Notes under the pieces: generated by a model
Seen by the model: only the letters and a program-made list of their open reading frames with translations
Databases searched by the model: none
Told to the model about the DNA's origin: nothing
Program-made: the position numbers and the translations under genes
DNA from: Deltaproteobacteria bacterium
GTDB lineage: Bacteria; Desulfobacterota; Desulfobacteria; Desulfobacterales; Desulfosarcinaceae
Assembly (NCBI GenBank): GCA_021824175.1
Contig: JAKALP010000045.1
Coordinates: forward strand, 1-37,039
Reading direction: 5' to 3'
DNA: 37,039 nucleotides
Shown: in pieces, positions 14,126 through 32,033 of the stretch
How the letters are laid out: every line of letters starts with the position of its first letter
Numbering within the stretch: the first letter of the stretch is position 1

Positions 14126-14828
<703 letters not shown>

Positions 14829-14836
<8 letters not shown>

Positions 14837-15590
14837 GGACCTCTCCCCCCAGGTAGGCTTCGATGACGGCCTGATTGCTCTTGATTTCTTCGGGACTGCC
14901 TTCGGCGATTTTCTTCCCATAGTTCAAAACCACGATGCGGTCGGCCAGCCCCATGATCATCTGCATTTTATGCTCGATGATGCACACCGTGGTGCCCTGG
15001 TCGCGGATGCGCTGGATCAGGCGCGTGATGCGGTCGGTCTCTTCCTGGATCAGGCCGCCGGTGGGCTCATCCAGCAGCAGCATGCGCGGTTTGCCCATCA
15101 TGGCGATGCCGATGGCCAATCGTTTCTGTTCTTCTTGGGACAAGGCCGGGATGAAAAATTCGCTTTTATCGGTCAGTCCCAGAAATTCGAGGATCTCCAT
15201 GGCGCGAAGAAATGCTTCGGTCTGGTAGGCCTTCCATTTGGGGGTATGCAGCAGAGTATTCCAAAAACCAAGGCCGGTGCGCCATTTATAGCCGATCATG
15301 AGATTGTCTATTACCCGCAATTGATCGAACAGGCTGGTGGTCTGGAAGGTCCGGGCCATGCCTTTGGTGACGATGCGGTATGGCTTTAAGCCGGTGATAT
15401 TGTGCCCGTCCATGAAGACCAAACCCGAAGTGGGCTTGAAGGTTCCGGTCATCATGTTGAACAGGGTGGACTTGCCGGCGCCGTTGGGGCCGATGATGGC
15501 CAGAATTTCTCCCTGCTTGATTTCAAAGCTGACGTCCTGTACGGCCGCCAGTCCGTCGAAAAGCTTGGTTAAGGATTTAGCCAGAAACAT
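14829..15590 (-). CDS. livG: Branched-chain-type amino acid ABC transporter ATP-binding protein LivG
   Basis: A 253-residue ABC ATPase of the LivG type. Walker A is GPNGAGKST, GMARTFQTTSLFDQLRV is the LivG-type Q-loop, and Walker B is MLLLDEPTGGL, ending with the LivG-typical VIEAYLGGE. The signature reads LSQEEQKRLAIG: the Gly that normally contacts the partner's ATP is Glu here, while the partner LivF keeps a canonical signature. One degenerate site is tolerated in many two-subunit ABC systems. It overlaps livM by 14 nt and livF by 8 nt. Confidence 0.92.
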
Positions 15591-16581
15591 GCACGGCCTC
15601 CGATTTCTTCCGCCGGCGACGGTCGGCGATAATTTGATTCAAACGACGCAGGCCGCCCACAAAACCCATGGGGAAATAGATGATGACCACCACCAGCAGC
15701 GCCCCGAAAATCAGGAGCTGATAGTCCTGCAGGAACTGCAGAGATTCCATGAGGATGGGTATGGCGAAAGCGCCGATCACCGAACCGGACAGGGTGGCTA
15801 TGCCGCCCAGGATCAGATAGATCAGAAAATTGAAGGTCAGTCCGTAGCCGGCCGCGCTGGGGCTGACCGCGCCGATCACGATGGCATATAGCCCGCCCGC
15901 CAGGGCTGCGATAAAATTGGCGGCCTCAAAGGAGATCAATTTGGTTGTAAATGTGTTGATGCCGACAGCATCGGCCAGGGCCTCGTTGTTGCGCACGGCC
16001 ATGAACGTCAGTCCGAAAACGGAATAGACAATGCGGTACAGGGCCCACAGGGTGAGCAGGAGGAAGGCCAAGGCCAGGTAGTACTGCGCGGCCTGGGAAG
16101 AAAAGTCGATGCGGCCGATCAGAGGCACCAAGATGTCGCCGGGCGGCGCAATGCCGAAAATTCCGTTTTCCCCGCCGGTCAATTCGATCCAATTGCCGGC
16201 CACGATCCACATGATGACGCCAAAGCACAACGTGACGATGGCGAAATAGTGCCCCCGGGTTCGCAGCGAAATCAGACCGACCGGCAGACCGATGAGCACG
16301 GCCATGACCGCCGCCGCCGGCAGGGCCAGCCAGAAGGAGACACCGGCCTTGGTCAAAATGGCCACGCCGTAAGCCCCGATGCCGAAGAAGGCGCCGTGGG
16401 CCAGGGAGGCCTGGCCGGTGAAGCCAATGATCAGGTTCATGGCGCAGGTGGCGATGGCGAAAAGGATGCTCATGATCACGACTTGGAACATATACGCATC
16501 CGATATGAAAAGAGGCAGGAGCAATGCCGCGATCAGCACGGCCAGGAAGAACAACTTGATATGGATCGGCTTGGTGAACAC
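15577..16581 (-). CDS. livM: Branched-chain-type amino acid ABC transporter permease LivM
   Basis: A 334-residue polytopic inner-membrane permease with about eight to ten hydrophobic spans. LivM features are clear: NLIIGFTGQASLAHGAFFGIGAY near 50-72, LPVGLISLRTRGHYFAIVTL near 100-120, the EAA-like VRNNEALADAVGINTFTTKLISF near 197-220, and GGIATLSGSVIGAF near 262-275. It pairs with LivH to form the pore and contacts LivG/LivF through the EAA-like loop. The start codon follows the livH stop by 3 nt and the stop overlaps livG. Confidence 0.93.
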   Translation of the reverse strand: MFTKPIHIKLFFLAVLIAALLLPLFISDAYMFQVVIMSILFAIATCAMNLIIGFTGQASLAHGAFFGIGAYGVAILTKAGVSFWLALPAAAVMAVLIGLPVGLISLRTRGHYFAIVTLCFGVIMWIVAGNWIELTGGENGIFGIAPPGDILVPLIGRIDFSSQAAQYYLALAFLLLTLWALYRIVYSVFGLTFMAVRNNEALADAVGINTFTTKLISFEAANFIAALAGGLYAIVIGAVSPSAAGYGLTFNFLIYLILGGIATLSGSVIGAFAIPILMESLQFLQDYQLLIFGALLVVVIIYFPMGFVGGLRRLNQIIADRRRRKKSEAVHVSG

Positions 16582-16584
16582 GGA

Positions 16585-17448
16585 TCAGGCCTCCTTTTTA
16601 CCGAATAACCCGGTGGGCTTGATGGAGAGAATGAGGATGAGCGCGCCGAAGGCGAACACGTTTTTATATGCCGCGGACACATAGCCGCCGCCCAGGGCTT
16701 CGATCAATCCCAGAATGTAGCCTCCCAGGATGGCTCCCGGGATGCTTCCCAGGCCGCCCAGAATGACGATGATAAAGGCTTTCATTCCCAGAATGGCGCC
16801 CATGGAGGGTGAAAGCATGAAGATCGGTGACAGGAAACTGGCCGCCAATGCGGCCGTGGCCGTGGAAATGGCAAAGGTGATGGCCGATACACGGTTGACG
16901 TTGATACCCGTCAACATGGCCCCTTCGCGATTCTGGGCCACGGCTTCGATTGTTGCTCCGAGAACGGTCTTTTTCATGAAAAAATGCAGCCCGACGATCA
17001 GGGCCGCGGCGGCGACGATGACCAGCACCCGCTGCACGGTCATGGTGATACCTAAAAATTGGAAGGTCTCGGGATATGGATTGGTGATGCGCAGTCCCTG
17101 TGGCCCCCACACCGCCAGGGCAAATGCTTCCAGAAAGACCAGCGATCCGATGGCGGCGATAAAATCATTGATAGGCGGCTGGCCGGTCAGCGGGCGAAAG
17201 ACCACGCGCTCCATGACCACGCCCACCATACCTAAAATGATCATCGAGGCCAGCAGGCTGAGCCAGAAGCCCAGGCCCAGCGTAGCGAAGAAGAAGTAGG
17301 TGACATAACCGCCCAGCATGTACAAGTGTCCGTGGGCGAAATTGGGGATGTTCAAAATTCCCATGACCAGCGTCAGTCCCAGCGCCACGATGGCATAGGT
17401 GCTGCCGAACATGATGCCGTTGAACACCTGTTGCAGAAATAGCTCCAT
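16585..17448 (-). CDS. livH: Branched-chain-type amino acid ABC transporter permease LivH
   Basis: A 287-residue permease. It begins MELFLQQVFNGIMFGSTYA, the usual LivH start, and holds GLTLVMGILNIPNFAHGHLYMLGGY (23-47), the EAA-like VAQNREGAMLTGINVNRVSA and GGLGSIPGAILGGYILGLIE. I choose ATG 17448, preceded by AAGGGGAATTC; the frame stays open to 17556 but the extra 36 residues run through a strong hairpin and look non-coding. It is separated from livK by 180 nt holding two hairpins, and by 3 nt from livM. Confidence 0.93.
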   Translation of the reverse strand: MELFLQQVFNGIMFGSTYAIVALGLTLVMGILNIPNFAHGHLYMLGGYVTYFFFATLGLGFWLSLLASMIILGMVGVVMERVVFRPLTGQPPINDFIAAIGSLVFLEAFALAVWGPQGLRITNPYPETFQFLGITMTVQRVLVIVAAAALIVGLHFFMKKTVLGATIEAVAQNREGAMLTGINVNRVSAITFAISTATAALAASFLSPIFMLSPSMGAILGMKAFIIVILGGLGSIPGAILGGYILGLIEALGGGYVSAAYKNVFAFGALILILSIKPTGLFGKKEA

Positions 17449-17471
17449 GAATTCCCCTTGCGGTCGGTTAG

Positions 17472-17506
17472 TGTCCATCCAGAAACGGCCAATTTCTGGA
17501 TGGACA
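17472..17506 (-). terminator. Strong hairpin between livK and livH, likely attenuator
   Basis: TGTCCATCCAGAAA at 17472-17485 pairs exactly with TTTCTGGATGGACA at 17493-17506, a 14-bp stem with a 7-nt loop. It stands 24 nt upstream of the livH start. No U-run follows, so it probably stabilises the upstream livK message or causes partial termination, which would give more binding protein than permease. Confidence 0.6.
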
Positions 17507-17560
17507 TCAGTTGCCGGTCTGCGGCCAACCGGCCTGACCCTATCGAAGTTGGACAACGGC

Positions 17561-17597
17561 CGGGGCCGAAAAGTCCATGGCGGACTTCGAGGCCCCG
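17561..17597 (-). terminator. GC-rich hairpin just after livK
   Basis: CGGGGCC at 17561-17567 pairs with GGCCCCG at 17591-17597, and an inner AAGTCC/GGACTT pair extends the stem. It lies 30-70 nt after the livK stop codon. With the hairpin at 17472-17506 it forms a tandem structure between the binding-protein gene and the rest of the operon. Confidence 0.55.
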
Positions 17598-17628
17598 GGA
17601 TAGGTATTTACCTTGCCATAAATTGAGA

Positions 17629-18894
17629 TTACTGCAAATAGCCTTTGAGCGGCAGCCAGGAGGTCACGACATTGTCGCTGGCCGGAATGCTCTTGAGCAA
17701 CTCCATATACGCGGCTTCGTCTTTCGTCCACCAGACATATTGATTCACCTTGGTGTACTTTCCATCAATAATTTCGCCCGCCGTGGTCGTAATGAGCAGT
17801 TTCGGGCCCAGGGTGCCGATAAACGGGGTCGGAACCTTGGTCGGATCCTGCGGCAGAACCTTGGCGAAAGCCGCCTTGATGGCTTGGGGATTATCGATGG
17901 TTCCGGCTTTTTCCATGGCGTGAACCACGATCATCGTCGCCGAGTAGTTCAGCAAGGCTTCGAAAGTGTCGTGCACGCCGTACTCCTTCTCGTAGCGCTT
18001 GTTCCATTCGGGAATGACCGGGGAGGGAAGCCCCACTATTGGCGCCACGCCAATGACATTGCCCATCTTGGAGAGGTCGCCCTTGAACACGACATCGGCG
18101 ATGTAGTCCATTTTGGCCTGGTCCACCAGGACGAAACCACCATTGAAGCCCAGATTGTGAGCCTGCTCGATCACCAGACCGGTCGGCTCGGAAGGGCCGC
18201 CGATGAGAAGAAATTCAGGATGGGTGGCGATGACGGCGCTCAGCTGCGCGGAAAAGTCCGTTTCGGTGTAGTAATTGGCCGGCTTGTCGGCCAGGATCTC
18301 ACCGCCGATTTCCTCCCAATGGTGTTTGAAGGCTTCGCGCCACTCGTCCCCATAGGCGCCGAGGGTGACCATCATGGCGCCTTTGCGCCAACCCTTTTTC
18401 CAGGCCATGTCGCAAAATGCATTCACATAAGCGGTAAAGGGCGGAGGGATGGACACCGTGAGATCGTTGGGAATCTGCTCGATTTTGGGCGTGCTGCTGT
18501 ACGCCATCAAAAGGAACTGGGAAGTCTTCTGCTGGTTGATCTGCATCAAGGGCGCGATGGTGTTGAACACGGGATTGAATATGACGCGCGCCTTGGATCT
18601 CGAACTCAATCGCCTGGCATTGTTCACCGCGATGGTAGGATCGATCCGGTCGTCGAGCCCTTCGACCTTCACTGTATATTTTTTCCCTTTGACGGTGATT
18701 CCGCCGCCTTTGTTGATATCGTCGGCGGCCATTTTAATTCCGTTGAGAACATCGCGCCCATACCCCGCGCCGGGACCGCTCAAGGGTCCGGTGAAGCCGA
18801 TTACCACATCCTTGGCCAGGGCATTGGTGCTCAACGCGGCCCATGCAAAGATCCCAATTACCGCCATCCGCATAGGAAGTATTAGATGTTTCAT
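17629..18894 (-). CDS. livK: Branched-chain-type amino acid ABC transporter substrate-binding protein LivK
   Basis: A 421-residue periplasmic binding protein of the type 1 fold. A Sec signal peptide covers residues 1-27 (charged start, hydrophobic core, cleavage after NALA). The mature part starts KDVVIGFTGPLSGPGAGYGRD, typical of the Leu/Ile/Val family, and the second lobe (GEILADKPANYYTETDFSAQLSAV) is also typical. The ligand could be a branched-chain amino acid, an aromatic acid or an amide; the family is broad. ATG 18894 follows AGGAGGAAATGCC. A possible -35/-10 pair (TTGACC at 18973-18978 and TTCTAT at 18950-18955, 17 bp apart, minus strand) lies 55-85 nt upstream. First gene of the operon. 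Confidence 0.92.
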   Translation of the reverse strand: MKHLILPMRMAVIGIFAWAALSTNALAKDVVIGFTGPLSGPGAGYGRDVLNGIKMAADDINKGGGITVKGKKYTVKVEGLDDRIDPTIAVNNARRLSSRSKARVIFNPVFNTIAPLMQINQQKTSQFLLMAYSSTPKIEQIPNDLTVSIPPPFTAYVNAFCDMAWKKGWRKGAMMVTLGAYGDEWREAFKHHWEEIGGEILADKPANYYTETDFSAQLSAVIATHPEFLLIGGPSEPTGLVIEQAHNLGFNGGFVLVDQAKMDYIADVVFKGDLSKMGNVIGVAPIVGLPSPVIPEWNKRYEKEYGVHDTFEALLNYSATMIVVHAMEKAGTIDNPQAIKAAFAKVLPQDPTKVPTPFIGTLGPKLLITTTAGEIIDGKYTKVNQYVWWTKDEAAYMELLKSIPASDNVVTSWLPLKGYLQ

Positions 18895-20240: not shown

Positions 20241-21566
20241 TTAGATTTTGAAATCCGTTTTTTTGCCCCACACGCCGAGCGCAATCCCCAACTCTTCATG
20301 CTCTTTGCCATACTGCTCCACGGGGATTCCCTTGACGGCTGCGTCGATGGCCTGCCGCAGGGCGCGGGCGCCGGCGCGCGGCCCCTTGGGATGGGCATGG
20401 ATGCCACCGCCGGAGCCGATCATGATGTCCCGGCCCAGCGATAGCAGGATGTCGGCCACGTTGGCCGGCGTGATGCCGCCCGAGGGCATGGGCATGGTGG
20501 GTTTGAGATTGCCCATGGGATAGGTCAGGCAGCGGGTGGTGGCCATGAAACGGTCGTGCAGGTAGATCGCCTTGCCGCCCATGGAAAAGGGCAGCACGAT
20601 GGCGTCGGCCCCGCACAGACGCGAAATCTTACCGAAGATAATGGGTGATGAGATCCCCTGGTGGGGCGACATGAAATAGGCGCCAGCCAGATCCATGTGG
20701 GCCAGGATGGGCACGTTGATGGCCGGGTCGTCGGCCAGGGCGCGCATGGCTTCGGGGCCCACGGCCAGATAGTTGACCATCATGGCATTGGCGCCGGCGT
20801 CGATGCAGCGCTTGGCCAGCTCGAACATGCGCGGCAGGCGGTCGGTGACGTTGACCGTGTAGAGGGTGTGCTCGCCGGTTTCTTCGAAGACCTGCTTTTC
20901 GATGGCCATGTAGGTCTTCACCCGCTGGACCGCGTCGTTATAGCGCATGTTGGCGATCAGTTCGTCATCTTTGATCACGTCGCAACCGCCCAGGGCCGCT
21001 TCTTTGAAAAGTTTGGCCCCTACTTCCAGGGGATAGCCGCTGCACGGCTTGATCATGTTGTTGAGCAGCGGCCGGTCTTTCTTCAGTCCCAGGGCCTCCC
21101 ACCAGCCGGCTAAACCGAATTTGGGGCCGTTGTACTGCGCCAGGGTGGCCTTGGGGATGCGCAGATCCAGCAGCTTGAAGTTGGGCACCAAAGAGATGTT
21201 GCCGATGGTGGCGGTCAGCATCATGGGCAGTTGGTCTTCGACGTTGGCCGACGGAAAAGCGACCTGCAAAATATACTGCCGCCGCTTGACATCTTCGGGC
21301 ACCCCATACTCATAGTACGGCGCCTCATAGATGCCGATCACCTTGGCTACATGTTTGGCCCGGATTTCCGGCGTTTCGCCCGGCACCGGTACCCAGGTGC
21401 CGGTGGTCTGCTCGATGGCCAGCACCTGCCCCATGAGGGCCATATCCATGGTCCGGTCGGATTCGATCCAGTAGGTGGCGATGACGTGATTCTCCATGTC
21501 AATGCCTTCGGGCAGGGCAATGGGTTTATCGGCGAAGGCGTCCATTGGCTTTTGAGATTTTTCCAT
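20241..21566 (-). CDS. RuBisCO-like protein (form IV-type)
   Basis: A 441-residue RuBisCO large-subunit homologue. Residues matching RuBisCO sites: Glu52, Thr57 and Trp58 (EQTTGTW), Asn123 (IGNIS), Lys173 (MIKP), Lys199, Asp201 and Glu202 (VIKDDE, metal and carbamate), His290, Lys332 (MGGK, loop 6), Ser362 (PSGGI) and Gly-rich 385-388 (GSGGG). Altered: the Lys177 position is Cys175, the Arg295 position is Met291, and the His327 region reads GISSP. The phosphate-binding side looks kept while carboxylation residues are lost, the pattern of RuBisCO-like proteins that enolise, isomerise or decarboxylate phosphorylated sugars. Last gene of the cassette, 107 nt after the aminotransferase. The kinase upstream could make its substrate. 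Reaction unknown. Confidence 0.88.
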   Translation of the reverse strand: MEKSQKPMDAFADKPIALPEGIDMENHVIATYWIESDRTMDMALMGQVLAIEQTTGTWVPVPGETPEIRAKHVAKVIGIYEAPYYEYGVPEDVKRRQYILQVAFPSANVEDQLPMMLTATIGNISLVPNFKLLDLRIPKATLAQYNGPKFGLAGWWEALGLKKDRPLLNNMIKPCSGYPLEVGAKLFKEAALGGCDVIKDDELIANMRYNDAVQRVKTYMAIEKQVFEETGEHTLYTVNVTDRLPRMFELAKRCIDAGANAMMVNYLAVGPEAMRALADDPAINVPILAHMDLAGAYFMSPHQGISSPIIFGKISRLCGADAIVLPFSMGGKAIYLHDRFMATTRCLTYPMGNLKPTMPMPSGGITPANVADILLSLGRDIMIGSGGGIHAHPKGPRAGARALRQAIDAAVKGIPVEQYGKEHEELGIALGVWGKKTDFKI

Positions 21567-21590
21567 ATTCTTTTCTCCTTCACTTCGTAC

Positions 21591-21620
21591 TCGTACTCGA
21601 AGAATCTGACTCGAGTACGA
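21591..21620. repeat. GTACTCG-type palindromic repeat, copy 2
   Basis: TCGTACTCGA at 21591-21600 pairs exactly with TCGAGTACGA at 21611-21620 across 10 nt. It is built from the same GTACTCG/CGAGTAC unit as the block at 3418-3505. It lies in the 107-nt gap between the aminotransferase and RuBisCO-like genes, where it may alter mRNA stability inside the operon. Confidence 0.65.
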
Positions 21621-21673
21621 TTTAAGAGGGGCTATAACATTTCCTTTCAGGCGCCTACAGAACCAGCCACCAA

Positions 21674-23083
21674 CTAACTCTTCGGTATCAAATCAAGCAA
21701 ATACTGCCAGACCTCCAAAGTCTTCTTCAGCGCGGCGTCATCGTGCTGCATGCAGGTGTACATGCGTGTGCCGGCCAGGGTGCACAGACCGTGAGCCATG
21801 GTGATCACCTGATAATCGTCGGCCACCTGCTTACGGTCTAAAATTTGGAACAGGGCGTCGGGCGCGCCGAGGTCCACCGAGAAAAAGGCGGTGGTCATGT
21901 AGTGCATGATCGGGCCGAAATTGTAGACGAAGAAGCCCAGGTCGGCACGGGTGGCGAACAGATCGTTGAGCGCCTTTGTGAGCCGGTTGGCAAAAGCAAT
22001 GGATTTGCCCACGGCGTCGTGTTCTTCCATGAGTTTGAGGGCATGGTAGCAGGCAGCCGTGGAGATGGGGTTGGCCGCCAGGGTACCACCCACGAAGACT
22101 TTCTGGCCCAGGCTGCCGGCGCAGGCGCCCATCACGTCCTTGCGGCCGCAGACCGCGCCCGAGGAGGGATAGCCGTGGGTGATGATCTTGCCCAGCACCG
22201 TGAGGTCGGGTTTGATGTTGAAGTACTTCTGGGCTCCGCCCATATCCAGGCGGAAGCCGGTGACCACTTCATCGAAGATCATCAGGGCGCCGTACTGATC
22301 GCAGAGCTGGCGGATGGTCTTGTTCCAGTCGGGATGCACCGGGTGGGCCCCGGATTCGCCGCCGATGGGTTCCACGATAATACCGGCGATGCCGCCCTTG
22401 TCCTGGTTCTCCTTGAAGGCTTTTTCCAGGGCGTCGAAGTCATTGGGCGGCACGTCCACGATGTGGCTGAAGCATTCATTGGGGATGCCCTTGGATTCCA
22501 GGGCGCCGGTCTGGGGGATGTGGATGGAATAGACCATCTGGTCGGACCAGCCGTGGTAGCTGCCGCCGATCTTGATGATCTTCTGCTTGCCGGTGAAGGC
22601 CCGGGCGATGCGGATGGCGGCCATGTCGGCCTCGGTGCCCGATTGAAGAAAACGCACCATCTCCACGCCGGGCATGTGTTTGATGATCTGCTCGGCGGCC
22701 AGCAGTTCGTACTCCGAAGTCAAACCCGTGGCCGGGCCCTTTTCCTGGATGATCCGGACAATTTTGTCATCCAGCTCCTTGAAGCAGTGGCCGAGGATGA
22801 TGGGCGCGCCGCAGAGCAGATAGTCGATATACTCGTTGCCGTCCACATCCCAGATCTTGTAGCCTTTGGCCCGGTCCATGGCCAGGGGAAAGGGCTTGTT
22901 CTGGCTCAGGTTGTGTTCGACGCCGCCGGGGATCAGATTTTTGGCCTTCTCAAAGATCTCCACCGAGCGCCGGGTGCGCGCGGCGTAGCGTTTGTGTTCT
23001 TCCGCCAACTTCTCCTTGGGAATGCGGCGGACCGGGCGGGAAAGAATCTCTTTTCTACGCGCCACGATTTCCTGATATTCCAT
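21674..23083 (-). CDS. Class III aminotransferase (glutamate-1-semialdehyde aminomutase-like)
   Basis: A 469-residue PLP enzyme of fold type I. Visible: IPGGVEHNLS near 51-60, WDVDGNEYIDYL near 78-89, FLQSGTEADMAAIRIARA (145-161) as in glutamate-semialdehyde aminomutase, SYHGWSD (175-181), FDEVVTGFR (270-278, Asp271 contacts the PLP nitrogen), and Lys299 in VLGKIITHGYPSSG forming the Schiff base. The N-terminus is about 40 residues longer than in heme-pathway HemL. The context (sugar kinase, RuBisCO-like protein, transporter, regulator) argues for a catabolic aminotransferase or aminomutase rather than tetrapyrrole synthesis. The substrate is unknown. GAGGCTCAT precedes the start; it follows the kinase by 60 nt. 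Confidence 0.88.
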   Translation of the reverse strand: MEYQEIVARRKEILSRPVRRIPKEKLAEEHKRYAARTRRSVEIFEKAKNLIPGGVEHNLSQNKPFPLAMDRAKGYKIWDVDGNEYIDYLLCGAPIILGHCFKELDDKIVRIIQEKGPATGLTSEYELLAAEQIIKHMPGVEMVRFLQSGTEADMAAIRIARAFTGKQKIIKIGGSYHGWSDQMVYSIHIPQTGALESKGIPNECFSHIVDVPPNDFDALEKAFKENQDKGGIAGIIVEPIGGESGAHPVHPDWNKTIRQLCDQYGALMIFDEVVTGFRLDMGGAQKYFNIKPDLTVLGKIITHGYPSSGAVCGRKDVMGACAGSLGQKVFVGGTLAANPISTAACYHALKLMEEHDAVGKSIAFANRLTKALNDLFATRADLGFFVYNFGPIMHYMTTAFFSVDLGAPDALFQILDRKQVADDYQVITMAHGLCTLAGTRMYTCMQHDDAALKKTLEVWQYLLDLIPKS

Positions 23084-23143
23084 ATGAGCCTCCTTTACTG
23101 CCCATCGGTCGGGATTATTTGAAAGGGATCATGCCTTTAATTT

Positions 23144-24736
23144 TCAGGTGACATCCAAATTTTTGTTCAACCGCGCGCAGGCCTTTTTTTGAGACTTGTA
23201 GTGCGCCAGGTACTCCTTGAAAATTTCATCGTAGATCTTGCGGTGTTTCGGGTTGGGGGTGTATTCGGCTTTGATCTGGATGCATTTCGGGATTTCTTCG
23301 GCAGTCAAATGGCCCAAAGCGATGGCGGCCAGAAATGCGGCCCCACGGGCATTGGAGAAGATGGGGTCCTTAACCTGGCGGATCTTGCGGTCGAAGATAT
23401 CGGCCAGAATCTGCGACCAGACATCGGAGTTGGCGCCGCCGCCGATGAAGTTCAGATAGGAAAATGGCCGGCCCATGAATTTCTCCACGGGCTGCAACAG
23501 CCATTTGGCATTGAAGGCCACACCTTCGAAAACCGCCCGTACGATATCTTCGCGGGTGTTCTGCAAGGAGAGATTAAACAGGGAGGAGCGGATGTGGTGG
23601 TTTTCCACCGGCGAGCGCTCTCCATAAAGCCAGGGGGTAAAAATCACGCCATTGGCGCCGGCCGGCACCCGGGCCACAATCTGGTCCATGACCTTGAAGA
23701 TGTCCGGCGCATTGGTCTCCCGAAGCAATTCATCCTTGTGATAGAGTACATTGTCGCGCAGCCAGGTGAGACATTTGCCGGCGGACTCCTGTTCGGACAA
23801 AATCAGATAGCGACCGGGGAGGGGGCTGGGAAATGAGCCGAAGTTGTGGAAAATGTCGGTCTTTTTGAAAGGCACATGGCCCGAGATCCAGGCCGAGGTG
23901 CCGATGTACAGATGGCCCTCATAGTCCCGGACCGCGCCCGAACCCACGCCGGCTGAAGGCACGTCGGGCGTGCCGCCGATCACCGGCGTGTCCGGTTTAA
24001 GACCCAGCTCACGGGCTACATCTGCTTTTACCGGCCCGAGGATATCCAAAGCGCCCACCAGATCGGGAAGCTTGTCGCGGTCGATACCCGCCAGCCGCAG
24101 CAATTTGTCGTGATAGGCGATTCGGGCCGGGTCGCGGTTGTCGGTAACCCAGTGGAGCAGGATCGAATCGTAGGTGGCCGCGAACCGTCCGGTGAGGCGC
24201 AGGTTGATGTAGTCCTTGGGATCGAGGAATTTGTAGGTTTGCCGGTAGAGGTCCGGCCGGAGCTTCTTCAGCCACAGGATGTGGCACAGAGGGTCCTTGC
24301 CTGAGCGCGCCGGCGCGCCGCCCGTGAGTTTGAGCCAGGTGCGGAACTTGAAAAGCGAGTAACCCTCGACATTGATCAGGCCCGTGAGCCGCTCGCGGAT
24401 GGCCTCGGCCCCGCGCGAATCCATCCAGATGATGCCGTTCATCAAATGCTGGCCTTCCCGGTCCACGGGCACGGTCCCCGACCACTGGGCGGTTACGCTG
24501 ACCGCCGCGATCTGTTCGGGCGGCGCCAGCCCCGCGGCCAGCAATTGCTTGGCCGTGGCCATGATGCTCTTCCACCACTGCTCCGGGTCTTGCTCGGCGC
24601 CGCCGCCGGGCAGCAGGATGACGTCATTGGTCTGGAATCGGCTGCCGATCACTTCTCCGCGGATGGAAATTAGGGCGCTTTTGGGTCCGGAGGTTCCCAG
24701 GTCGATGGACAGTATATACTTATCTTTGCTATTCAT
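23144..24736 (-). CDS. FGGY-family carbohydrate kinase (xylulokinase-like)
   Basis: A 530-residue kinase with both FGGY actin-like domains. N-terminal IDLGTSGPKSALIS (11-24) is the phosphate-1 motif. GGAEQDPEQWW follows (45-55), and QWSGTVPVDREG and MNGIIWMDSRG resemble the sugar-site segment. GGTPDVPSAGVGSGA in the second domain carries the likely catalytic Asp, with YIGTSAW, FIGGGANSDVWSQILAD and NARGAAFLAA for ATP binding. The length suits xylulokinase or related ketose/polyol kinases. It would phosphorylate a sugar, polyol or acid sugar for the downstream RuBisCO-like protein. It lies 38 nt after the TetR gene. Confidence 0.9.
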   Translation of the reverse strand: MNSKDKYILSIDLGTSGPKSALISIRGEVIGSRFQTNDVILLPGGGAEQDPEQWWKSIMATAKQLLAAGLAPPEQIAAVSVTAQWSGTVPVDREGQHLMNGIIWMDSRGAEAIRERLTGLINVEGYSLFKFRTWLKLTGGAPARSGKDPLCHILWLKKLRPDLYRQTYKFLDPKDYINLRLTGRFAATYDSILLHWVTDNRDPARIAYHDKLLRLAGIDRDKLPDLVGALDILGPVKADVARELGLKPDTPVIGGTPDVPSAGVGSGAVRDYEGHLYIGTSAWISGHVPFKKTDIFHNFGSFPSPLPGRYLILSEQESAGKCLTWLRDNVLYHKDELLRETNAPDIFKVMDQIVARVPAGANGVIFTPWLYGERSPVENHHIRSSLFNLSLQNTREDIVRAVFEGVAFNAKWLLQPVEKFMGRPFSYLNFIGGGANSDVWSQILADIFDRKIRQVKDPIFSNARGAAFLAAIALGHLTAEEIPKCIQIKAEYTPNPKHRKIYDEIFKEYLAHYKSQKKACARLNKNLDVT

Positions 24737-24774
24737 CCGTTCACCCGTTTCGGGCTGGAGGTGTTATCAAGCGC

Positions 24775-25410
24775 TCATCCGGTAATGTTGCGCGTGGTAT
24801 TCTCCACGATTTGCTTCAAAGTCGCCTCAGGGTCGGCCGTAATCTGCGCGAGCACGCCGCTGTTGTATAAGGAGATAACCCCGTGCAGGATGCTGGTGGC
24901 CTGGATGGCCAGGAATCTGGCATCCGGCGCTCGGCCGTCTTCCTTGGCGTCGCAAACTTCCTGGATGACGCCTTCGGCAAAAGCGCGCACCCGCAAAGAA
25001 CTACGAAACTCATCGTCCGACAACGCCTCCTGGGGCGTGCCGATATAGTCACTGTGCTGCCGGATACGCCGGTTGAACATGATGTCGTAGATATTGATGT
25101 TTTGCGTGCCGAAGGTCACGAAGGCCTGGGTCAGCTTCTGAAAACGCGCCTGGGGCGTTTTGGCCTTTTGGACGGCGTCGCCCAACTGATCATACAGCAT
25201 GGCGTAAGCTTTTTTATGGATGGCGATCAGCAGTTCGTCCTTGTTGGCGTAGTAATTGTAAAGGTTGGCGGCCGTCATTTTCATGCGGGCGCCGACCTTG
25301 GCCATGGACAGGCCTTCGTAGCCGTTCTTGACAAGGATCTCGAAGGCGCAAGCCAGGATCTTTTCGCGTACGGCATCGACTTCTTCAGTACTTCGGGTCT
25401 TTTTAGGCAT
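24775..25410 (-). CDS. TetR/AcrR-family transcriptional regulator
   Basis: A 211-residue regulator. Residues about 9-60 hold the TetR DNA-binding domain: VREKILACAFEILVKNGYEG, the helix-turn-helix GLSMAKVGARMKMTAANLYN and the typical ending YYANKDELLIAI. The C-terminal ligand domain (about 65-205) is variable, as usual. The gene lies between the MFS gene (2-nt gap) and the kinase (38-nt gap), so it is part of the operon. The perfect palindrome at 26729-26757, over the promoter of the MFS gene, is the best candidate operator, which implies autorepression relieved by a pathway compound. Confidence 0.9.
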   Translation of the reverse strand: MPKKTRSTEEVDAVREKILACAFEILVKNGYEGLSMAKVGARMKMTAANLYNYYANKDELLIAIHKKAYAMLYDQLGDAVQKAKTPQARFQKLTQAFVTFGTQNINIYDIMFNRRIRQHSDYIGTPQEALSDDEFRSSLRVRAFAEGVIQEVCDAKEDGRAPDARFLAIQATSILHGVISLYNSGVLAQITADPEATLKQIVENTTRNITG

Positions 25411-25412
25411 CT

Positions 25413-26660
25413 TTAGATCTCATCGGTTTGAACCAGTTTCGATTCTTTTAATTTGGAAATAAAGAACAGGTTGAGCATGGTCAGGGCAATAAAAACGATC
25501 ATGGCCGGCGTCTTGGACGCGTCCGCCGCGCTCCAGAGATCCATGCCGAAGACAAATAGAATCCCCGAAATCTGCCCGGCGAAAAGAAGCAATCCCTGGG
25601 AGGTGGCTTCAGGGGCCGGGTACGAAACCTCGGCGGAGTACTGATAGCAAATCGGGCCGCCGGCCAGCAGAAAAAAGCCCATGATAAAGCAGGCCCAAAG
25701 AAGCAAGCTGTAGTGAGTCGCAAAGGTCATCCCCACCAGACCGGGCAGGGCAAAGAGTGTAGTAATGAGAATGAAGACTTTGCGTTTGCGCAGCTTATCG
25801 GAAAGCAAAGGCAGGATGGAGGCGCCGATGATCCCGCCGATCATGAGCATGGCCCCGGCAAATCCGGCCTGGGTAGTAGTGAATCCGCGCGGCTTGAGAA
25901 TCTGTTCGATCCAGGTGGTGATGGCGTTGAAAATGCCCAGACCGATGAAGAAAACCAACAGAAGATAGCGCATGTCCTTCTGTTGCAGGATATGCTTCAG
26001 GCCGGCCAGGGCCGGGATGCGTTCGTCATGGCCCGGCGGACAGGGTGGCGTCGGCGGGTGCTCCCGGTTGAAGAGCAGGAAAAGCGTGGCGCCGGCAAAG
26101 GTTACCAGCCCGTAGATCAACAGCATTTTTTTCATGCCCCAGCTCTGCAAAAGTAGCGGCGTGGCCGCCATGGCCGCGATGATCCCCACAAACTGGGCCA
26201 GCACCGAGATGCCGGCCTGGGTGGCCCGCTCGTGCAGCGGAAACCAGCGCACGCCGAGCTTGGTGACCGCGTTGAGAATGAACGGCTGCGCCACGGCCAA
26301 ACCGACCTGGGACAGTACTACCATCGCGTAGCTCGCCCCGCCCAGGCCTTTGAACAGTCCGAAAATCCCGAGCAGCACCGCGCCAGCGCCGATGCCGATT
26401 TTAATGCCCCAGGTGTCGATGACGTAGGAGGCCGGGATGGAAACGAAGATGTAGACGATCATGAAGATCAGGGAGAGCAGATCGATTTGCAGGGCGGATA
26501 CCTTATAGAACGCCACCGCCTCGCTGGTGATGGGTGCAAAGGTGATCCACTGGACTTGAATCAGGGCGTTGATCAGAAAGAAGAAGAGCAGAATGACCCA
26601 ACGATACCCGTAAACCTTGATGGGGACCGGTTCCGCTGTTGCTTGAAACGTCTGCGCCAT
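25413..26660 (-). CDS. MFS transporter (FLVCR/oxalate-formate-like group)
   Basis: A 415-residue secondary transporter with about 12 hydrophobic spans. The first span is YRWVILLFFFLINALIQVQW; the loop 2-3 signature resembles IPASYVIDTWGIKIGIGAG; the central cytoplasmic loop (RKR at the start of half two, SDKLRKRKVF) gives the usual six-plus-six layout. I choose ATG 26660 (MAQTFQATAEP) because GGGAGGTCG precedes it; the upstream frame from 26717 adds 19 residues and lies in the promoter region. It probably imports the substrate of the cassette. The operator palindrome lies 69-97 nt upstream. It is the first gene of the TetR-controlled unit. Confidence 0.87.
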   Translation of the reverse strand: MAQTFQATAEPVPIKVYGYRWVILLFFFLINALIQVQWITFAPITSEAVAFYKVSALQIDLLSLIFMIVYIFVSIPASYVIDTWGIKIGIGAGAVLLGIFGLFKGLGGASYAMVVLSQVGLAVAQPFILNAVTKLGVRWFPLHERATQAGISVLAQFVGIIAAMAATPLLLQSWGMKKMLLIYGLVTFAGATLFLLFNREHPPTPPCPPGHDERIPALAGLKHILQQKDMRYLLLVFFIGLGIFNAITTWIEQILKPRGFTTTQAGFAGAMLMIGGIIGASILPLLSDKLRKRKVFILITTLFALPGLVGMTFATHYSLLLWACFIMGFFLLAGGPICYQYSAEVSYPAPEATSQGLLLFAGQISGILFVFGMDLWSAADASKTPAMIVFIALTMLNLFFISKLKESKLVQTDEI

Positions 26661-26728
26661 GAAACGACCTCCCGCTGCATTATCTATTCGGTCTCGGCGA
26701 GCCGAGATTTTGAGCAAGAAAGAGCCGT

Positions 26729-26757
26729 CTATTAATTTAATAGTATTAAATTAATAG
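26729..26757. promoter_or_regulatory. Perfect 29-bp palindrome, candidate TetR operator
   Basis: The arms are CTATTAATTTAATA at 26729-26742 and TATTAAATTAATAG at 26744-26757, exact inverted copies about a central G. Reading the minus strand, TTGACT (26771-26776) and TAATTT (26748-26753) form a -35/-10 pair 17 bp apart, so the -10 box lies inside the palindrome. A repressor bound here would block transcription of MFS, TetR, kinase, aminotransferase and RuBisCO-like genes. Confidence 0.75.
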
Positions 26758-26776
26758 GCTTAAACTGAATAGTCAA
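26748..26776 (-). promoter_or_regulatory. Sigma-70-type promoter of the MFS-to-RuBisCO-like operon
   Basis: On the minus strand TTGACT at 26771-26776 and TAATTT at 26748-26753 are separated by 17 bp. Five of six and four of six positions match the -35 and -10 consensus. The promoter overlaps the candidate TetR operator and is about 90 nt upstream of the MFS start. Confidence 0.5.
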
Positions 26777-26837
26777 CCATAATTTGGAGATGGTTGGGTG
26801 ATCGATCAGCGCCGGAAGCAGTCAGGGCTTGTTTGGC

Positions 26838-27758
26838 TTAAAAGGCAACTTCATGCAATCCCTTCAAATTCAATATCCGCCGGGTCTCCTGGGGCGTGGC
26901 CGGCTCGATGCCCAGTTCGCGGGCAATGCGGATGATCTTCCTCACCTGGTCGGCATTGCTTTTGGCCGGCACTCCCTTTTCCAGGTAGAGATTATCTTCC
27001 AGACCCACGCGGGCATGGCCGCCCATGAGCAGGGATTGGGTGCACATGGCAAATTGGGCCTGGCCGGCGGCACACACCGAAAATTCAAATTGACCGATCT
27101 GTTTGCGGGCCGTTTCCACCAGAAATACCAGGTTTTCCGGCGTGGCCGGAATGCCGCCCAAAATGCCCATGACAAATTGCAGGTAGATGGGCGGCTTCAC
27201 GATGCCTTCGGCCATGAGAAAGGCCAGATTGTTGAGCATGCCCACGTCATAGATTTCAAATTCGGGCTTGGTTTGCGTAGCGGCGAAGATCTCCAAAAAT
27301 TCGCGCATGGTTTTGAAGGTGTTGGGGAAGATAAAATCTTCGGTGGCGCGCAGGTATTGTTCTTCCCACTCATATTTAAATTCCTTGAATTTCCCCAGCA
27401 CTTGGAACAAGGCGAAATTGAGTGATCCGGCATTGAGTGAGGCCAGCTCAGGCTTGAGGGTCGAAGCCACCTGGACCCGTTTGGCCACCGGCTCGCCCAG
27501 GCGTCCGCCGGTAGTGGTGCACAGGATGATATCGCAATGCTTCTTTACTTCGGAGGCAATGCGCCGGAAACTCTCCTGGTCCGCGCTGGGCAAGCCATTG
27601 GTTTCTTCGCGTACATGCACGTGAGCCACCGCGCCGCCGGCCTGGTGCACGGCCAACACCTCATCGATGATCTGTTGGGTGGTGATGGGCAGATAAGGAC
27701 TCATGCTGGGAGTGTGGACCGAGCCCGTAATGGCGGCGGTAATGATGGCTTTGCGCAT
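26838..27758 (-). CDS. BKACE-family beta-keto acid cleavage enzyme (DUF849)
   Basis: A 306-residue TIM-barrel enzyme of the 3-keto-5-aminohexanoate cleavage family. These condense a beta-keto acid with acetyl-CoA and release acetoacetate plus a new CoA ester. Visible: KAIITAAITGSVHTPSMSPY at the start, zinc ligands His46 and His48 in AHVHVREE, DIILCTTTGGRLGEP (76-90), PELASLNAGSLNF, and EFSVCAAGQAQFAM. ATG 27758 follows CAGGAGATTAACC; the longer frame to 27836 covers the promoter and looks non-coding. Position 14, a catalytic-site Glu in the lysine-pathway enzyme, is Val14 here (GSVHTPSM), so the substrate group differs. It has its own strong promoter and lies 177 nt upstream of the MFS gene. 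Confidence 0.9.
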   Translation of the reverse strand: MRKAIITAAITGSVHTPSMSPYLPITTQQIIDEVLAVHQAGGAVAHVHVREETNGLPSADQESFRRIASEVKKHCDIILCTTTGGRLGEPVAKRVQVASTLKPELASLNAGSLNFALFQVLGKFKEFKYEWEEQYLRATEDFIFPNTFKTMREFLEIFAATQTKPEFEIYDVGMLNNLAFLMAEGIVKPPIYLQFVMGILGGIPATPENLVFLVETARKQIGQFEFSVCAAGQAQFAMCTQSLLMGGHARVGLEDNLYLEKGVPAKSNADQVRKIIRIARELGIEPATPQETRRILNLKGLHEVAF

Positions 27759-28946: not shown

Positions 28947-31900
28947 CTATACATACCTCTTCATCGCTTCCAAATAGCCCTGATAATTGGAAAGGTAGAA
29001 TGAGAGTGCCTTGGCAAAGTCGTCGCCCAACACGCCGTCGATGAACATCTGACTGATTTCACGTTGGCGCAGCAGGGTAAATTGGGAGGTGACCAGCAAG
29101 TGCCGTTCTTCTTCATTGGCTTTTGCCAATAGATGGTCCAGGGCCACTCTGGCCCGGGGTTGATACATCCAGAAGTAGAGTAAATCCAGGGCGTGGATGG
29201 TGATGATCTTCTCCAGGTCCTGGGCTTCCATATTGTTGCGTGGATGAAATTTTTTAGATTGGTCCAGCAAGGAATAAGTATCGGTTTCGGGGTAAAGCAA
29301 TTCCAGTTGGGTATAGATATCCAACAGCTCCGCCAGTTTTAGACGGTAGTCCCGGAAGCGTACCTGGATGTTGTTATAGCGGTCGGCCGCGCCTTCGATA
29401 AGGCCAGCCATCATGTCCGAGGCGGTTTTGGAAATGATGGCGGCCCATTTCTGCAGCACATTCGTTACGGCTGGTACACCCGATATGGTCAGGAAATAGC
29501 CCACGCTAGCATTCAATAGGATGGCAATGGGAATAGAAAGGGCGCTGCGGAAAAGGTTACCGTAAACCGCTCCTTTAGGCAGTCCGCGAAAGGCATTATG
29601 GGCTGAAAGGTAAAGCCCATTGGTAATCGCCATGATAGTGTACAGCAGAGCTGGTTGCGTGGCTGTTGTTATGTCAAACATGCGTTCCAGGACAACGGTT
29701 TTTGTGAGATAGTCCAACAGGGGGACTGAAAAGCCAGTAAAGAGAAGGGAGTCTGCGATGCGGTCCCAGCTCACATAGGCGTTCCAGCGCAGCATGGGCG
29801 AGCGCCGCAACCCGCCGCCGCCCAAGACTGATTGCAGGACATTGCGGATACCCGTGATGGCAAACCAAATGAAGGCCCCGCCATAGGCCAGCAGCCACCA
29901 ATCTTTGGTTAAGAAAAAGGTGGCAAAAGCGGGAATAAACCCGGCCGTCACCTTGAGCAGGTTGCGCAGGTTGGAATTAATGTAGGGCCAGTTGCTTTTC
30001 TTTTTAACGTTATCCCCGCTTACTGGAATTAAATGGATTTGATTGTTAATGCGCTTGTCCACTCCGCCCAAAGTGACCACATTGCCGTTGGTATCGATGC
30101 GGGTTAACTCGCTTTGAACCGCCCAATCGACTTTCTTAACGGTCCCGATGCGCCAAAGCCAAGAGAGTTTATCGCTGAATTTGCTGGACTGAATAGGACG
30201 ATGGTTCAGCGAGGAACGTTTGATAAAGGTCTGGCGGCGATGGACAGTTATGGAAATGGGGATCTGTTCGCGTCCGGAACCGATATCCCGCTTGACTTGC
30301 CGGCGCGCCTTGGGCGGCAGGGTATCGGTGACCACCAGTCCCATGCCGTGAAATCGGGGTGAGCGACCGGTGGAGTCGCTGCCGATGCGGGCTTTGAGGG
30401 GCCTGACTTTGTACATATCCTGCAATGAGGAGATGTCGTGAAGAATGGCCTTAAGCTTGGCGATGCGCTCGTTAGCGTCAGCGCTCTTGGAACTTTCGAC
30501 TTTCTGGATGATTTTTTGAATGACCCGCTTGAGTTGAATGGGGTTACGGCCGTTGATGACCTCCTTAAGGCGGCTGATCTCGGGAATATGGTCCGTATGG
30601 CCATGGGACCAGTCTTTGAGATTGAACAGCTCCAGGCGCGAGATCATGCCATTGCAATCATAGAGCAGCTCCAACACATCTTCGATGGTCAGATCCGAGA
30701 GATTCAACGTAATTCGATAACCTGATTGCAAAGCCACTAGCTTGGCCAGCAACTCAGTGGGTGACAGTTTCAGAAATCCAGGCGCCTGGGGATCGTTAGG
30801 CGGCGCCTTAAGATTGGCAATGTCTGGGTTGCGGCCGGGTTTGAGGTATTGGGCCACGGTGGCTTCCAGATCCAGGCCATTGACCTCCTCAAACCATTTG
30901 CGGATTTTTTGCTGATCGTCGGTGTTGGCCTTGGGGTAAAGTTGTCGCCATTGGTTTCCTTTGTGTTGCAGGGCCTCCAACAGCTTCTGCTCGATAAATT
31001 TTTCCAGGTGCAATACTGATTTTTGGCCGACGCCGACAAAGGCTAAGAACTCCTTAGGGTCCAGAGGGACGATCTCCACATCATATGCCCGATTCAGATC
31101 GAGGCGATGCCGGCTATTAAATGCCTCCAATAAGGCCATGACTTGGGCCTGCTGGTAAGCCGAGGCGGCACGCCCCTCATTCATTAGCGCAACTACCGAT
31201 GGCTCCTCCAGAAAGCATAAAAAGGCCTGGGTGTCAGGAAAGCCCCTGGGCACCCAGATGAGGTTGATATATTTGCCGCGAAAACTGGCATAGAATTCGA
31301 TGCCAATGCGGAGGTCGATCTGCATGATCGTGGCTGCCTCCGCCAGTTCGGCGGCCGAGCGCGGTTCGATATAATTATAATGCACCACCCGTAAACGCCG
31401 GATGCCCTTGATCCAGGCATCCATGATTAAATGGGTGGAGGATTTGCGGCCCTTGGTGTTGGCGTCATGTACATGATCATCAAAAGAGATCTGGTTCCAG
31501 GCTTCGGGCATTTCCAGCAGATGGTACTTGCGCAATTGTTTGCGGATTATCCGCGGTTTTCCAGCAGCGGTAATGCGAAAGTCATGAGCCAGTTCAAGCT
31601 GCCGCCGTGGATTGTCTCGGGCACGCACCAGTTCCTTCATGATCTGCATCAGTACTCGGGCCGCGTTCTTGGGCAGGGGCCCGATAGCTGTGTCGAGCAC
31701 TTCAGCTCGCAAGGCCTGCAGGGCGCTCAGACGATCGTCCATGCCGCCGATTTCTAAGGAGGCTAGCAGGTGTACCATGGCGTAGCCGATGCGCAAGCTG
31801 CGCGATTCAGCCATCTCTTTAATGCCGTGGGGATGGAAATAGTTGTAGTATTGTTTGCGGATATAGGCCAGATCGCGGATTCTGACGCTTACGTTATTGA

Positions 31901-32033
31901 TAATCCGAACCAGTTCATAGTCGCGTCGGTCGAAAAGGTATTTGGGAATCCCGAGAGCGGCATTGGCTGACTTTCTTGAGATGGGAATGGCGGGGAGATG
32001 AGTGGCGCCAATATGCGAAACGCTCGATTTCAT
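28947..32033 (-). CDS. Large membrane protein with PHP-phosphoesterase-like motifs
   Basis: A 1028-residue protein I cannot place in a named family. Residues 180-565 hold, in order, motifs like those of a PHP metal-dependent phosphoesterase: SFDDHVHD (183-190, HxH), VVHYNY (216-221), AAELAEAATIMQIDLRIGIEF (227-247, Glu246), LELFNLKDW with HGHTDH (467-482), and IGSDSTGRSPRFHGMG (550-565). The spacing is larger than in normal PHP domains, with helical inserts. Residues 600-690 look like a beta-rich domain. Hydrophobic spans follow near 693-708, 713-730, 757-778, 795-812 and 828-852; residues 880-1028 are helical and soluble. It may be an inner-membrane enzyme acting on phosphodiesters or nucleotides. 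There is no clear ribosome-binding site at ATG 32033, so the start is uncertain. Confidence 0.7.
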   Translation of the reverse strand: MKSSVSHIGATHLPAIPISRKSANAALGIPKYLFDRRDYELVRIINNVSVRIRDLAYIRKQYYNYFHPHGIKEMAESRSLRIGYAMVHLLASLEIGGMDDRLSALQALRAEVLDTAIGPLPKNAARVLMQIMKELVRARDNPRRQLELAHDFRITAAGKPRIIRKQLRKYHLLEMPEAWNQISFDDHVHDANTKGRKSSTHLIMDAWIKGIRRLRVVHYNYIEPRSAAELAEAATIMQIDLRIGIEFYASFRGKYINLIWVPRGFPDTQAFLCFLEEPSVVALMNEGRAASAYQQAQVMALLEAFNSRHRLDLNRAYDVEIVPLDPKEFLAFVGVGQKSVLHLEKFIEQKLLEALQHKGNQWRQLYPKANTDDQQKIRKWFEEVNGLDLEATVAQYLKPGRNPDIANLKAPPNDPQAPGFLKLSPTELLAKLVALQSGYRITLNLSDLTIEDVLELLYDCNGMISRLELFNLKDWSHGHTDHIPEISRLKEVINGRNPIQLKRVIQKIIQKVESSKSADANERIAKLKAILHDISSLQDMYKVRPLKARIGSDSTGRSPRFHGMGLVVTDTLPPKARRQVKRDIGSGREQIPISITVHRRQTFIKRSSLNHRPIQSSKFSDKLSWLWRIGTVKKVDWAVQSELTRIDTNGNVVTLGGVDKRINNQIHLIPVSGDNVKKKSNWPYINSNLRNLLKVTAGFIPAFATFFLTKDWWLLAYGGAFIWFAITGIRNVLQSVLGGGGLRRSPMLRWNAYVSWDRIADSLLFTGFSVPLLDYLTKTVVLERMFDITTATQPALLYTIMAITNGLYLSAHNAFRGLPKGAVYGNLFRSALSIPIAILLNASVGYFLTISGVPAVTNVLQKWAAIISKTASDMMAGLIEGAADRYNNIQVRFRDYRLKLAELLDIYTQLELLYPETDTYSLLDQSKKFHPRNNMEAQDLEKIITIHALDLLYFWMYQPRARVALDHLLAKANEEERHLLVTSQFTLLRQREISQMFIDGVLGDDFAKALSFYLSNYQGYLEAMKRYV

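Follow-up and report, generated by a model that had tools for sequence, protein, structure and literature searches.

The window, a 37,039-nt stretch of contig JAKALP010000045.1 from a deltaproteobacterium of the Desulfosarcinaceae, encodes a conserved three-gene unit composed of an FGGY carbohydrate kinase, a class III aminotransferase, and a RuBisCO-like protein (RLP). The conserved unit is real, and its RLP belongs, by sequence comparison, to a group outside the described groups that were sampled; the pathway assigned to it is a proposal. We give an even chance to the reading that RLP, aminotransferase, and kinase, accompanied here by a TetR-family regulator and an FLVCR-like MFS transporter, would serve to break down a small amino alcohol or amino polyol. 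The unit lies in a row of six genes that a sequence-only reading had presented as a single cassette. The shared strand, the short gaps (107, 60, 38, 2, and 177 nt from the RLP to the last gene, from coordinates), and the families named in that reading are all borne out by Pfam and the coordinates:

20241..21566, minus strand: RLP, 441 aa, last gene of the unit; PF00016 (4.1e-41) and PF02788
21674..23083, minus strand: class III aminotransferase, glutamate-semialdehyde aminomutase (GSAM)-like, 469 aa; PF00202
23144..24736, minus strand: FGGY carbohydrate kinase, xylulokinase-like, 530 aa; PF00370 and PF02782
24775..25410, minus strand: TetR-family regulator, optional part; PF00440
25413..26660, minus strand: MFS transporter related to FLVCR1/FLVCR2, optional part; PF07690; start at an ATG inside the listed frame
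26838..27758, minus strand: beta-keto acid cleavage enzyme (BKACE); PF05853 (1e-99); start at an internal ATG of the listed frame

The RLP is the sole PF00016 match across the host genome (6.07 Mb, 99.5% complete). A promoter and terminator scan returned 6 and 15 candidates, near the 4.2 and 10.1 expected from shuffled sequence.

Conservation of the kinase-aminotransferase-RLP unit

A scan of named genomes yielded 67 RLP loci, one of which (L103, a partial gene) is dropped from all counts, leaving 66. Neighbors were counted by tblastn at E 1e-10 and at least 70 bits, with at least 30% identity additionally required for FGGY, a filter that removes 25% FGGY matches in L091 and L096. Several of the 18 loci of a first linkage look are identical to records among the 66 (L020, L021, and L030 confirmed). 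Most loci are metagenome-assembled, and taxon labels, such as Spirochaetes for L043, may reflect mis-binning; short contigs and contig ends in the set possibly overstate absences.

Kinase orthologs (67-89% identity) lie upstream of the RLP, on the same strand and within 3.5 kb, in 26 of the 29 loci whose RLP is at least 80% identical (close loci). Aminotransferase orthologs (73-93%) are likewise upstream and on the same strand in 26/29, separated from the RLP by match-to-match gaps of 21-716 nt, with the L064 copy being a fragment. TetR (13/29) and MFS (12/29) genes are less regular, and an AraC regulator is near nine close loci. Pairwise distances across 26 loci correlate for RLP-aminotransferase (r 0.83), RLP-kinase (0.81), and aminotransferase-kinase (0.86), values that fit a shared history, though species relatedness alone yields the same pattern. 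The linkage of the trio is far beyond accident, and weaker for TetR and MFS, as judged without a computed background neighbor rate.

Linkage changes with RLP identity. At 65-79% (n=10), nine loci have a same-strand kinase upstream, the tenth contig beginning 288 nt upstream of the RLP, and two have the aminotransferase; two loci of this range carry a HAD phosphatase-like gene (query taken from L073) directly upstream of the RLP. At 49-53% (n=12), a kinase is near in three loci, all archaeal (two Thorarchaeota and one unclassified). Downstream of the ~51% RLPs in L077, L084, and other Syntrophomonas-type loci (for example, L077:9878-15230) come a pair of related TIM-barrel-like proteins and a Tm-1-like protein, with an additional ComB-like protein in L077 (names by eye). 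Below 49% (n=15), a GlpA-like flavin adenine dinucleotide dehydrogenase is near nine loci; this range includes RLPs of 39-48% identity (L090, L093, L094, L099, and others), many from Lachnospiraceae, and galactitol-type phosphotransferase system genes, recognized by eye near some of these, suggest polyol phosphate breakdown.

Within its lineage the unit is patchy: among 97 relatives, including the host itself, the RLP occurs in three, all within the 11 genomes of the genus. The two besides the host are L039 (uncultured Desulfatitalea) and L040 (Desulfobacterales bacterium). Among 395 sampled genomes of the phylum, nine carry an RLP of at least 81% identity and seven an aminotransferase of at least 75%, all seven being among those nine.

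The conserved unit is thus FGGY kinase, class III aminotransferase, and RLP, not six genes. Searched across genomes, the six-gene cassette keeps this trio and loses the rest: TetR and MFS are optional, and BKACE is near 0/66 loci (0/29 close loci). BKACE occurs in 8 of the 11 genus genomes (E ≤1e-60), five of which have no RLP match, and in the two other RLP-bearing genus genomes it sits on a different contig from the RLP. This uncoupling rules BKACE out as a unit member and marks it as a neighbor. It belongs to PF05853, and its closest substrate family, NF053538, scores 400 against a cut-off of 430.

Other neighbors in the window fall on both sides of the six genes. Adjoining the unit is a branched-chain amino acid type ABC transporter cluster (14126-18894, minus strand), with subunits named by eye except for a periplasmic binding protein (17629-18894, minus strand) assigned by Pfam. 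Liv-like matches occur in 3 of the 18 first-round loci (L024, L036, and L037), and only L024 of these has the trio. By eye, a 511-aa protein (12572-14107, plus strand) resembles the 4-hydroxybutyryl-CoA dehydratase/4-hydroxyphenylacetate hydroxylase family, and the C-terminal part of a 1028-aa open frame (28947-32033, minus strand) is membrane-like.

The open literature covered holds no description of an RLP in a unit with a kinase and an aminotransferase; most subscription papers lie outside this scope, and absence from print is not established. One actinobacterial RLP of unassigned function is described with epimerase-domain and DeoR-type neighbors (PMC7325909).

The RLP clade and its active site

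The RLP scores under the cut-off of every NCBIfam model listed. The best is the MtnW model NF007095 (322 versus 409 bits); the MtnW model TIGR03332 gives 277 versus 514 bits and the OiaX model NF042437 173 versus 700 bits. In a first tree of 82 rows, which left out L064, L075, L089, L095, and L097, the RLP falls inside a 29-row clade (SH-aLRT 100). A second, bootstrapped tree of 51 rows, which left out 31 further rows with the cupin-linked reference among them, places it inside a 23-row clade (100/100) that is distinct from form I, from the Photo type, from the four-carbon-acid-kinase/OiaX group (a 7-row clade of its own, 99/94), and from MtnW with 4nas. MtnW sits among lower-identity RLPs on a long branch, its exact position being unsure. 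The DeepYkr type is represented in the first tree by one 357-aa cupin-linked fragment on a very long branch, its type assigned by us. By these trees, the RLP clade is outside the sampled reference clades, a set in which DeepYkr is one fragment and other published clades are not knowingly included. The placement, with DeepYkr barely sampled, supports the sequence-only reading, which had set the partner genes apart from those of described RLP pathways (methionine salvage, the R. rubrum isoprenoid shunt, and 3-oxo-isoapionate decarboxylation). A separate RLP from the same phylum (L019, G380) is of Photo type, carries one in-frame TAA in its match, and groups with a Thiodictyon reference.

The AlphaFold2 model of the RLP, with a pLDDT (predicted local distance difference test) of 91.6, matches MtnW best (2oej/2oem, E ~1e-43), followed by other RLPs and form III RuBisCO. 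Fifteen of 19 RuBisCO positions are kept: E60, T65, W66, N123, K175, K201, D203, E204, H294, K334, S379, G380, G381, G403, and G404 (E52, T57, W58, N123, K173, K199, D201, E202, H290, K332, S362, G363, G364, G386, and G387 in the RLP's own numbering). The remaining four are substituted, K177 by C, R295 by M, H298 by A, and H327 by V. Across the 29-row close group, 18/19 positions are invariant, and position 298 is A in 24 rows and G in five. K175, K201, and K334, along with K177, have catalytic-site roles in RuBisCO.

R295, H327, and K177 are M, V, and C in 29/29 clade members, setting the RLP apart from RuBisCO forms I-III; all three are kept in 2/2 references of form I, the only RuBisCO form tabulated. 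R295 and H327 are residues that we take to be ligands of the second phosphate of ribulose 1,5-bisphosphate, and their loss suggests a substrate with a single phosphate and an uncharged far end.

The nearest solved fold, MtnW, is the 2,3-diketo-5-methylthiopentyl 1-phosphate (DK-MTP-1-P) enolase of the YkrW clade. It shares with the RLP a single-phosphate substrate, and its pathway has a kinase before it and a phosphatase after it. The two MtnW references differ from the RLP at three positions, having G60, K123, and S334 where the RLP has E60, N123 (29/29 clade members), and K334; the Lys at position 123 is presumably the general base in G. kaustophilus MtnW. An MtnW reference sits beside mtn genes (phosphatase and MtnB), whereas the RLP sits beside the FGGY kinase and the aminotransferase. 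The window neighbors belong to families other than mtn, the rest of the genome not having been searched for mtn genes. Membership in MtnW is ruled out by the sub-cut-off scores, residues 60, 123, and 334, and the separate clade.

The Rlp1 proteins of R. rubrum and R. palustris are described as 5-methylthioribulose-1-phosphate 1,3-isomerases (PMC5893883). The reaction proposed for the RLP is of this type, the isomerization of a ketose 1-phosphate. The known Rlp1 (DeepYkr) proteins partner with a cupin methylsulfurylase, and no cupin is among the identified RLP neighbors, which were surveyed without a dedicated search. That the RLP is a methionine-salvage enzyme of MtnW or R. rubrum type with coincidental neighbors, as its best NCBIfam and fold match would have it, is extremely improbable given the scores under both MtnW cut-offs, the three differing positions, the conserved neighbors, and the separate clade (DeepYkr being one fragment).

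OiaX-type RLPs resemble the RLP in adjoining a dedicated kinase. The kinase there is a four-carbon acid sugar kinase, no aminotransferase is found within the 2-2.5 kb viewed on each side, and the proteins keep R295 and mostly H327, have F for W66, and form a separate clade. OiaX membership is ruled out by the NF042437 score, the FGGY kinase in place of the four-carbon acid sugar kinase, and the separate clade. The Photo type (IV-Photo), whose two rows have E123 and R334, is ruled out by residues and clade alike.

Instead of merely shifting a proton, the RLP could catalyze carboxylation or decarboxylation of a keto compound with one phosphate, in the manner of OiaX with 3-oxo-isoapionate 4-phosphate; we regard this as unlikely. 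The retention of E60, N123, K175, K201, D203, E204, H294, and K334 in 29/29 clade members would suit such chemistry, and K334 is also present in seven OiaX-type references. These references retain R295 (7/7) and mostly H327 (6/7), separate from the RLP in the tree, and, in the five that are annotated, pair with a four-carbon acid sugar kinase, not FGGY. A broader version of this idea is a little less probable still. It would make the clade a new RuBisCO-family class that adds or removes CO2 on a mono-phosphorylated, amine-derived ketose through the intact E52, N123, K173, K199, D201, E202, H290, and K332, in a pathway common to anaerobic bacteria and, through the ~51% RLPs, Thorarchaeota.

Kinase, aminotransferase, and substrate clues

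The FGGY kinase matches PF00370 and PF02782 above cut-off and falls below that of XylB (281 versus 380 bits); D258, which we take to be the catalytic Asp, is present in 32/32 aligned rows, window included. The aminotransferase matches PF00202 above cut-off and is below the HemL model TIGR00713 (314 versus 527 bits), with K299, presumably the lysine that binds pyridoxal phosphate (PLP), in 28/28 aligned rows, window included. Its closest solved sequences are GSAM and amino acid aminotransferases.

A class II aldolase is near 11/29 close loci. The queries for it and for the c3 gene described below were taken from L020 (identical to locus L039) and L043, and both source loci are included in the counts. 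The nearest PDB counterpart of the unit-linked aldolase of relatives is L-fuculose-phosphate aldolase. The host genome encodes a 74% identical ortholog at G000:C5, on another contig than the unit; the aldolase probably belongs with the unit, though unlinked in this genome. In pathways of the fucose and rhamnose type, an FGGY kinase and a class II aldolase convert a ketose 1-phosphate to dihydroxyacetone phosphate (DHAP) and an aldehyde. The unit resembles these in its aldolase and differs in adding an aminotransferase and an RLP, with no sugar isomerase among the neighbors identified.

Aminotransferase paralogs (44-47%) occur in five phylum-sample genomes without an RLP at E 1e-60 (L141-L145), accompanied by an FGGY kinase in 5/5 and a class II aldolase in 4/5. 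Aminotransferase, kinase, and aldolase can therefore form a unit of their own, to which the RLP looks like an added step. The sequence-only reading, partly supported overall, had overlooked the aldolase and had no view of these RLP-free groups.

The MFS transporter is homologous to the choline/ethanolamine transporters FLVCR1 and FLVCR2 (phmmer 1.6e-32 to FLVCR2). In the structural report, W125 and Y349 of FLVCR hold the ammonium or amine group, Q214 and Q471 touch the choline hydroxyl, and Q214 touches that of ethanolamine (PMC11168923, Nature 2024). W38, Q125, F244, and Q363 of the MFS transporter correspond to W125, Q214, F348, and Q471 of FLVCR1, while Y349 is N in 13/13 rows. All five site residues are identical in the 13 aligned rows, window included. 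The protein also differs from FLVCR1 and FLVCR2 in being bacterial. The residues suggest small amino alcohols as the cargo class.

A saccharopine-dehydrogenase-like gene (copies of 53-65% identity) occurs in 5/66 loci (L044, L065, L076, L078, and L086), in each case without an aminotransferase match (Fisher p 0.06 over the 66 loci and 0.0012 over the 40 kinase loci, the loci not being independent). L076, L078, and L086 are archaeal, two of them Thorarchaeota, and hold the RLP, an FGGY kinase on the opposite strand, and the saccharopine-like gene. Its presence only where the aminotransferase is absent is read as an alternative amine-to-carbonyl step. Together with the FLVCR-like residues, this swap favors an amino-polyol-like substrate, in line with the amino-sugar-like or omega-amino compound suggested from the window alone.

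The same swap bears on a different role for the aminotransferase-like enzyme, as a phospho-lyase acting on a phosphorylated amino alcohol while the RLP catalyzes a parallel step. Class III PLP enzymes include phospho-lyases, human ETNPPL being the precedent we have in mind, and here such an enzyme adjoins a kinase. The saccharopine-like gene, found only where the aminotransferase is absent (5/5), suits an amine-to-carbonyl step, and the nearest homologs of solved structure are GSAM and other enzymes that act as amino acid aminotransferases; we regard the phospho-lyase as very unlikely.

Two further genes accompany some loci. An amidohydrolase, whose relatives include N-acyl-D-glutamate deacylase and D-aminoacylase and whose twin-arginine-like signal was recognized by eye, is near the aldolase or c3 in L045, L046, L047, and L062 and is partial at a contig end in L053; the RLP-free locus L143 has a 54% identical copy flanked by the aminotransferase and the kinase. 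The c3 gene (~360 aa; e.g., L043:11380-12465) follows the RLP in 21/29 close loci. It has no Pfam or NCBIfam match, and a search of the host genome, run without a positive control, returned no match. Its sequence has an invariant W/H/D pattern, and its model (pLDDT 73.6, moderate) gives nothing in Foldseek at E ≤0.001, the top matches (E 0.17 and worse) being zinc phospholipase C and P1-type nuclease structures. By eye, the His/Asp pattern may resemble that superfamily.

The direction of the unit is a separate matter, since the aminotransferase and kinase reactions suit both. In a biosynthetic unit, the aminotransferase would aminate a ketose phosphate to give an amino-polyol such as a lipid head group or a compatible solute, and outer-membrane and short-chain dehydrogenase genes near some loci would be at home there. 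The transporter and regulator (12-13/29), the aldolase (11/29), and the exported-looking amidohydrolase suit uptake and breakdown better, making biosynthesis rather unlikely.

A sphingoid-type base (2-amino-1,3-diol or 1,3,4-triol) as substrate, yielding DHAP and a fatty aldehyde, would account for the FadL-like outer-membrane protein (six loci), the short-chain dehydrogenases, and the N-acyl amidohydrolase-like protein near some loci. The FLVCR-like transporter, in contrast, indicates small amino alcohols. Of the short-chain dehydrogenases, that of L040 reaches 141 bits where the KdsR cut-off is 400, and KdsR is not among the best 25 models for that of L057. The known Pseudomonas sphingosine genes sphBCD are of other types (PMC11893366). 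We consider this substrate highly improbable.

Proposed pathway

In the catabolic pathway that we propose, the FLVCR-like transporter would take up the amino-polyol. The kinase would phosphorylate a terminal hydroxyl, either before or after the aminotransferase swaps the amine for a carbonyl to give a ketose phosphate. The RLP would bind the single phosphate and, at a predicted carbamate-Mg center formed by K199, D201, and E202, remove the proton beside the carbonyl to give an enediolate and return it elsewhere, acting as an isomerase, epimerase, or enolase without CO2. The class II aldolase, encoded elsewhere in the host genome, would split the product, probably into DHAP and an aldehyde. The pathway builds on observed gene content, linkage, clade, and residues, from which we infer the substrate and the RLP reaction.

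Several observations weigh against this pathway. At the level of linkage, the aminotransferase ortholog is missing from L044, L063, and L070 (RLP 81-85%); what L063 and L070 have instead is another class III aminotransferase, a GlpD-like dehydrogenase, and a kinase of 36% identity encoded on the opposite strand. Both the aminotransferase and the saccharopine-like gene are missing nearby in seven of the ten loci at 65-79%, some contigs being short; the seven genomes hold a 68-71% aminotransferase ortholog elsewhere (two), a 38-40% homolog (four), or none at E 1e-60 (one). No aldolase is nearby in 18/29 close loci. Of the five saccharopine-like loci, three come from related archaea; the L044 and L065 genomes hold aminotransferase homologs elsewhere (39% and 44%). 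At the level of residues, N245 of the transporter replaces FLVCR1 Y349, and the RLP keeps K332, N123, and E52, leaving room for CO2 chemistry.

The RLP reactions known so far are few and bear on the origin of RuBisCO. With its fixed partners (kinase and aminotransferase), near-full RuBisCO catalytic residues, and a guessable transporter ligand, this RLP group lends itself to a short substrate screen. The possible non-homologous replacement of the aminotransferase singles out one step, and the function is directly testable. If true, the proposal would give the RuBisCO fold a part in the breakdown of amino-polyols by anaerobic microbes.

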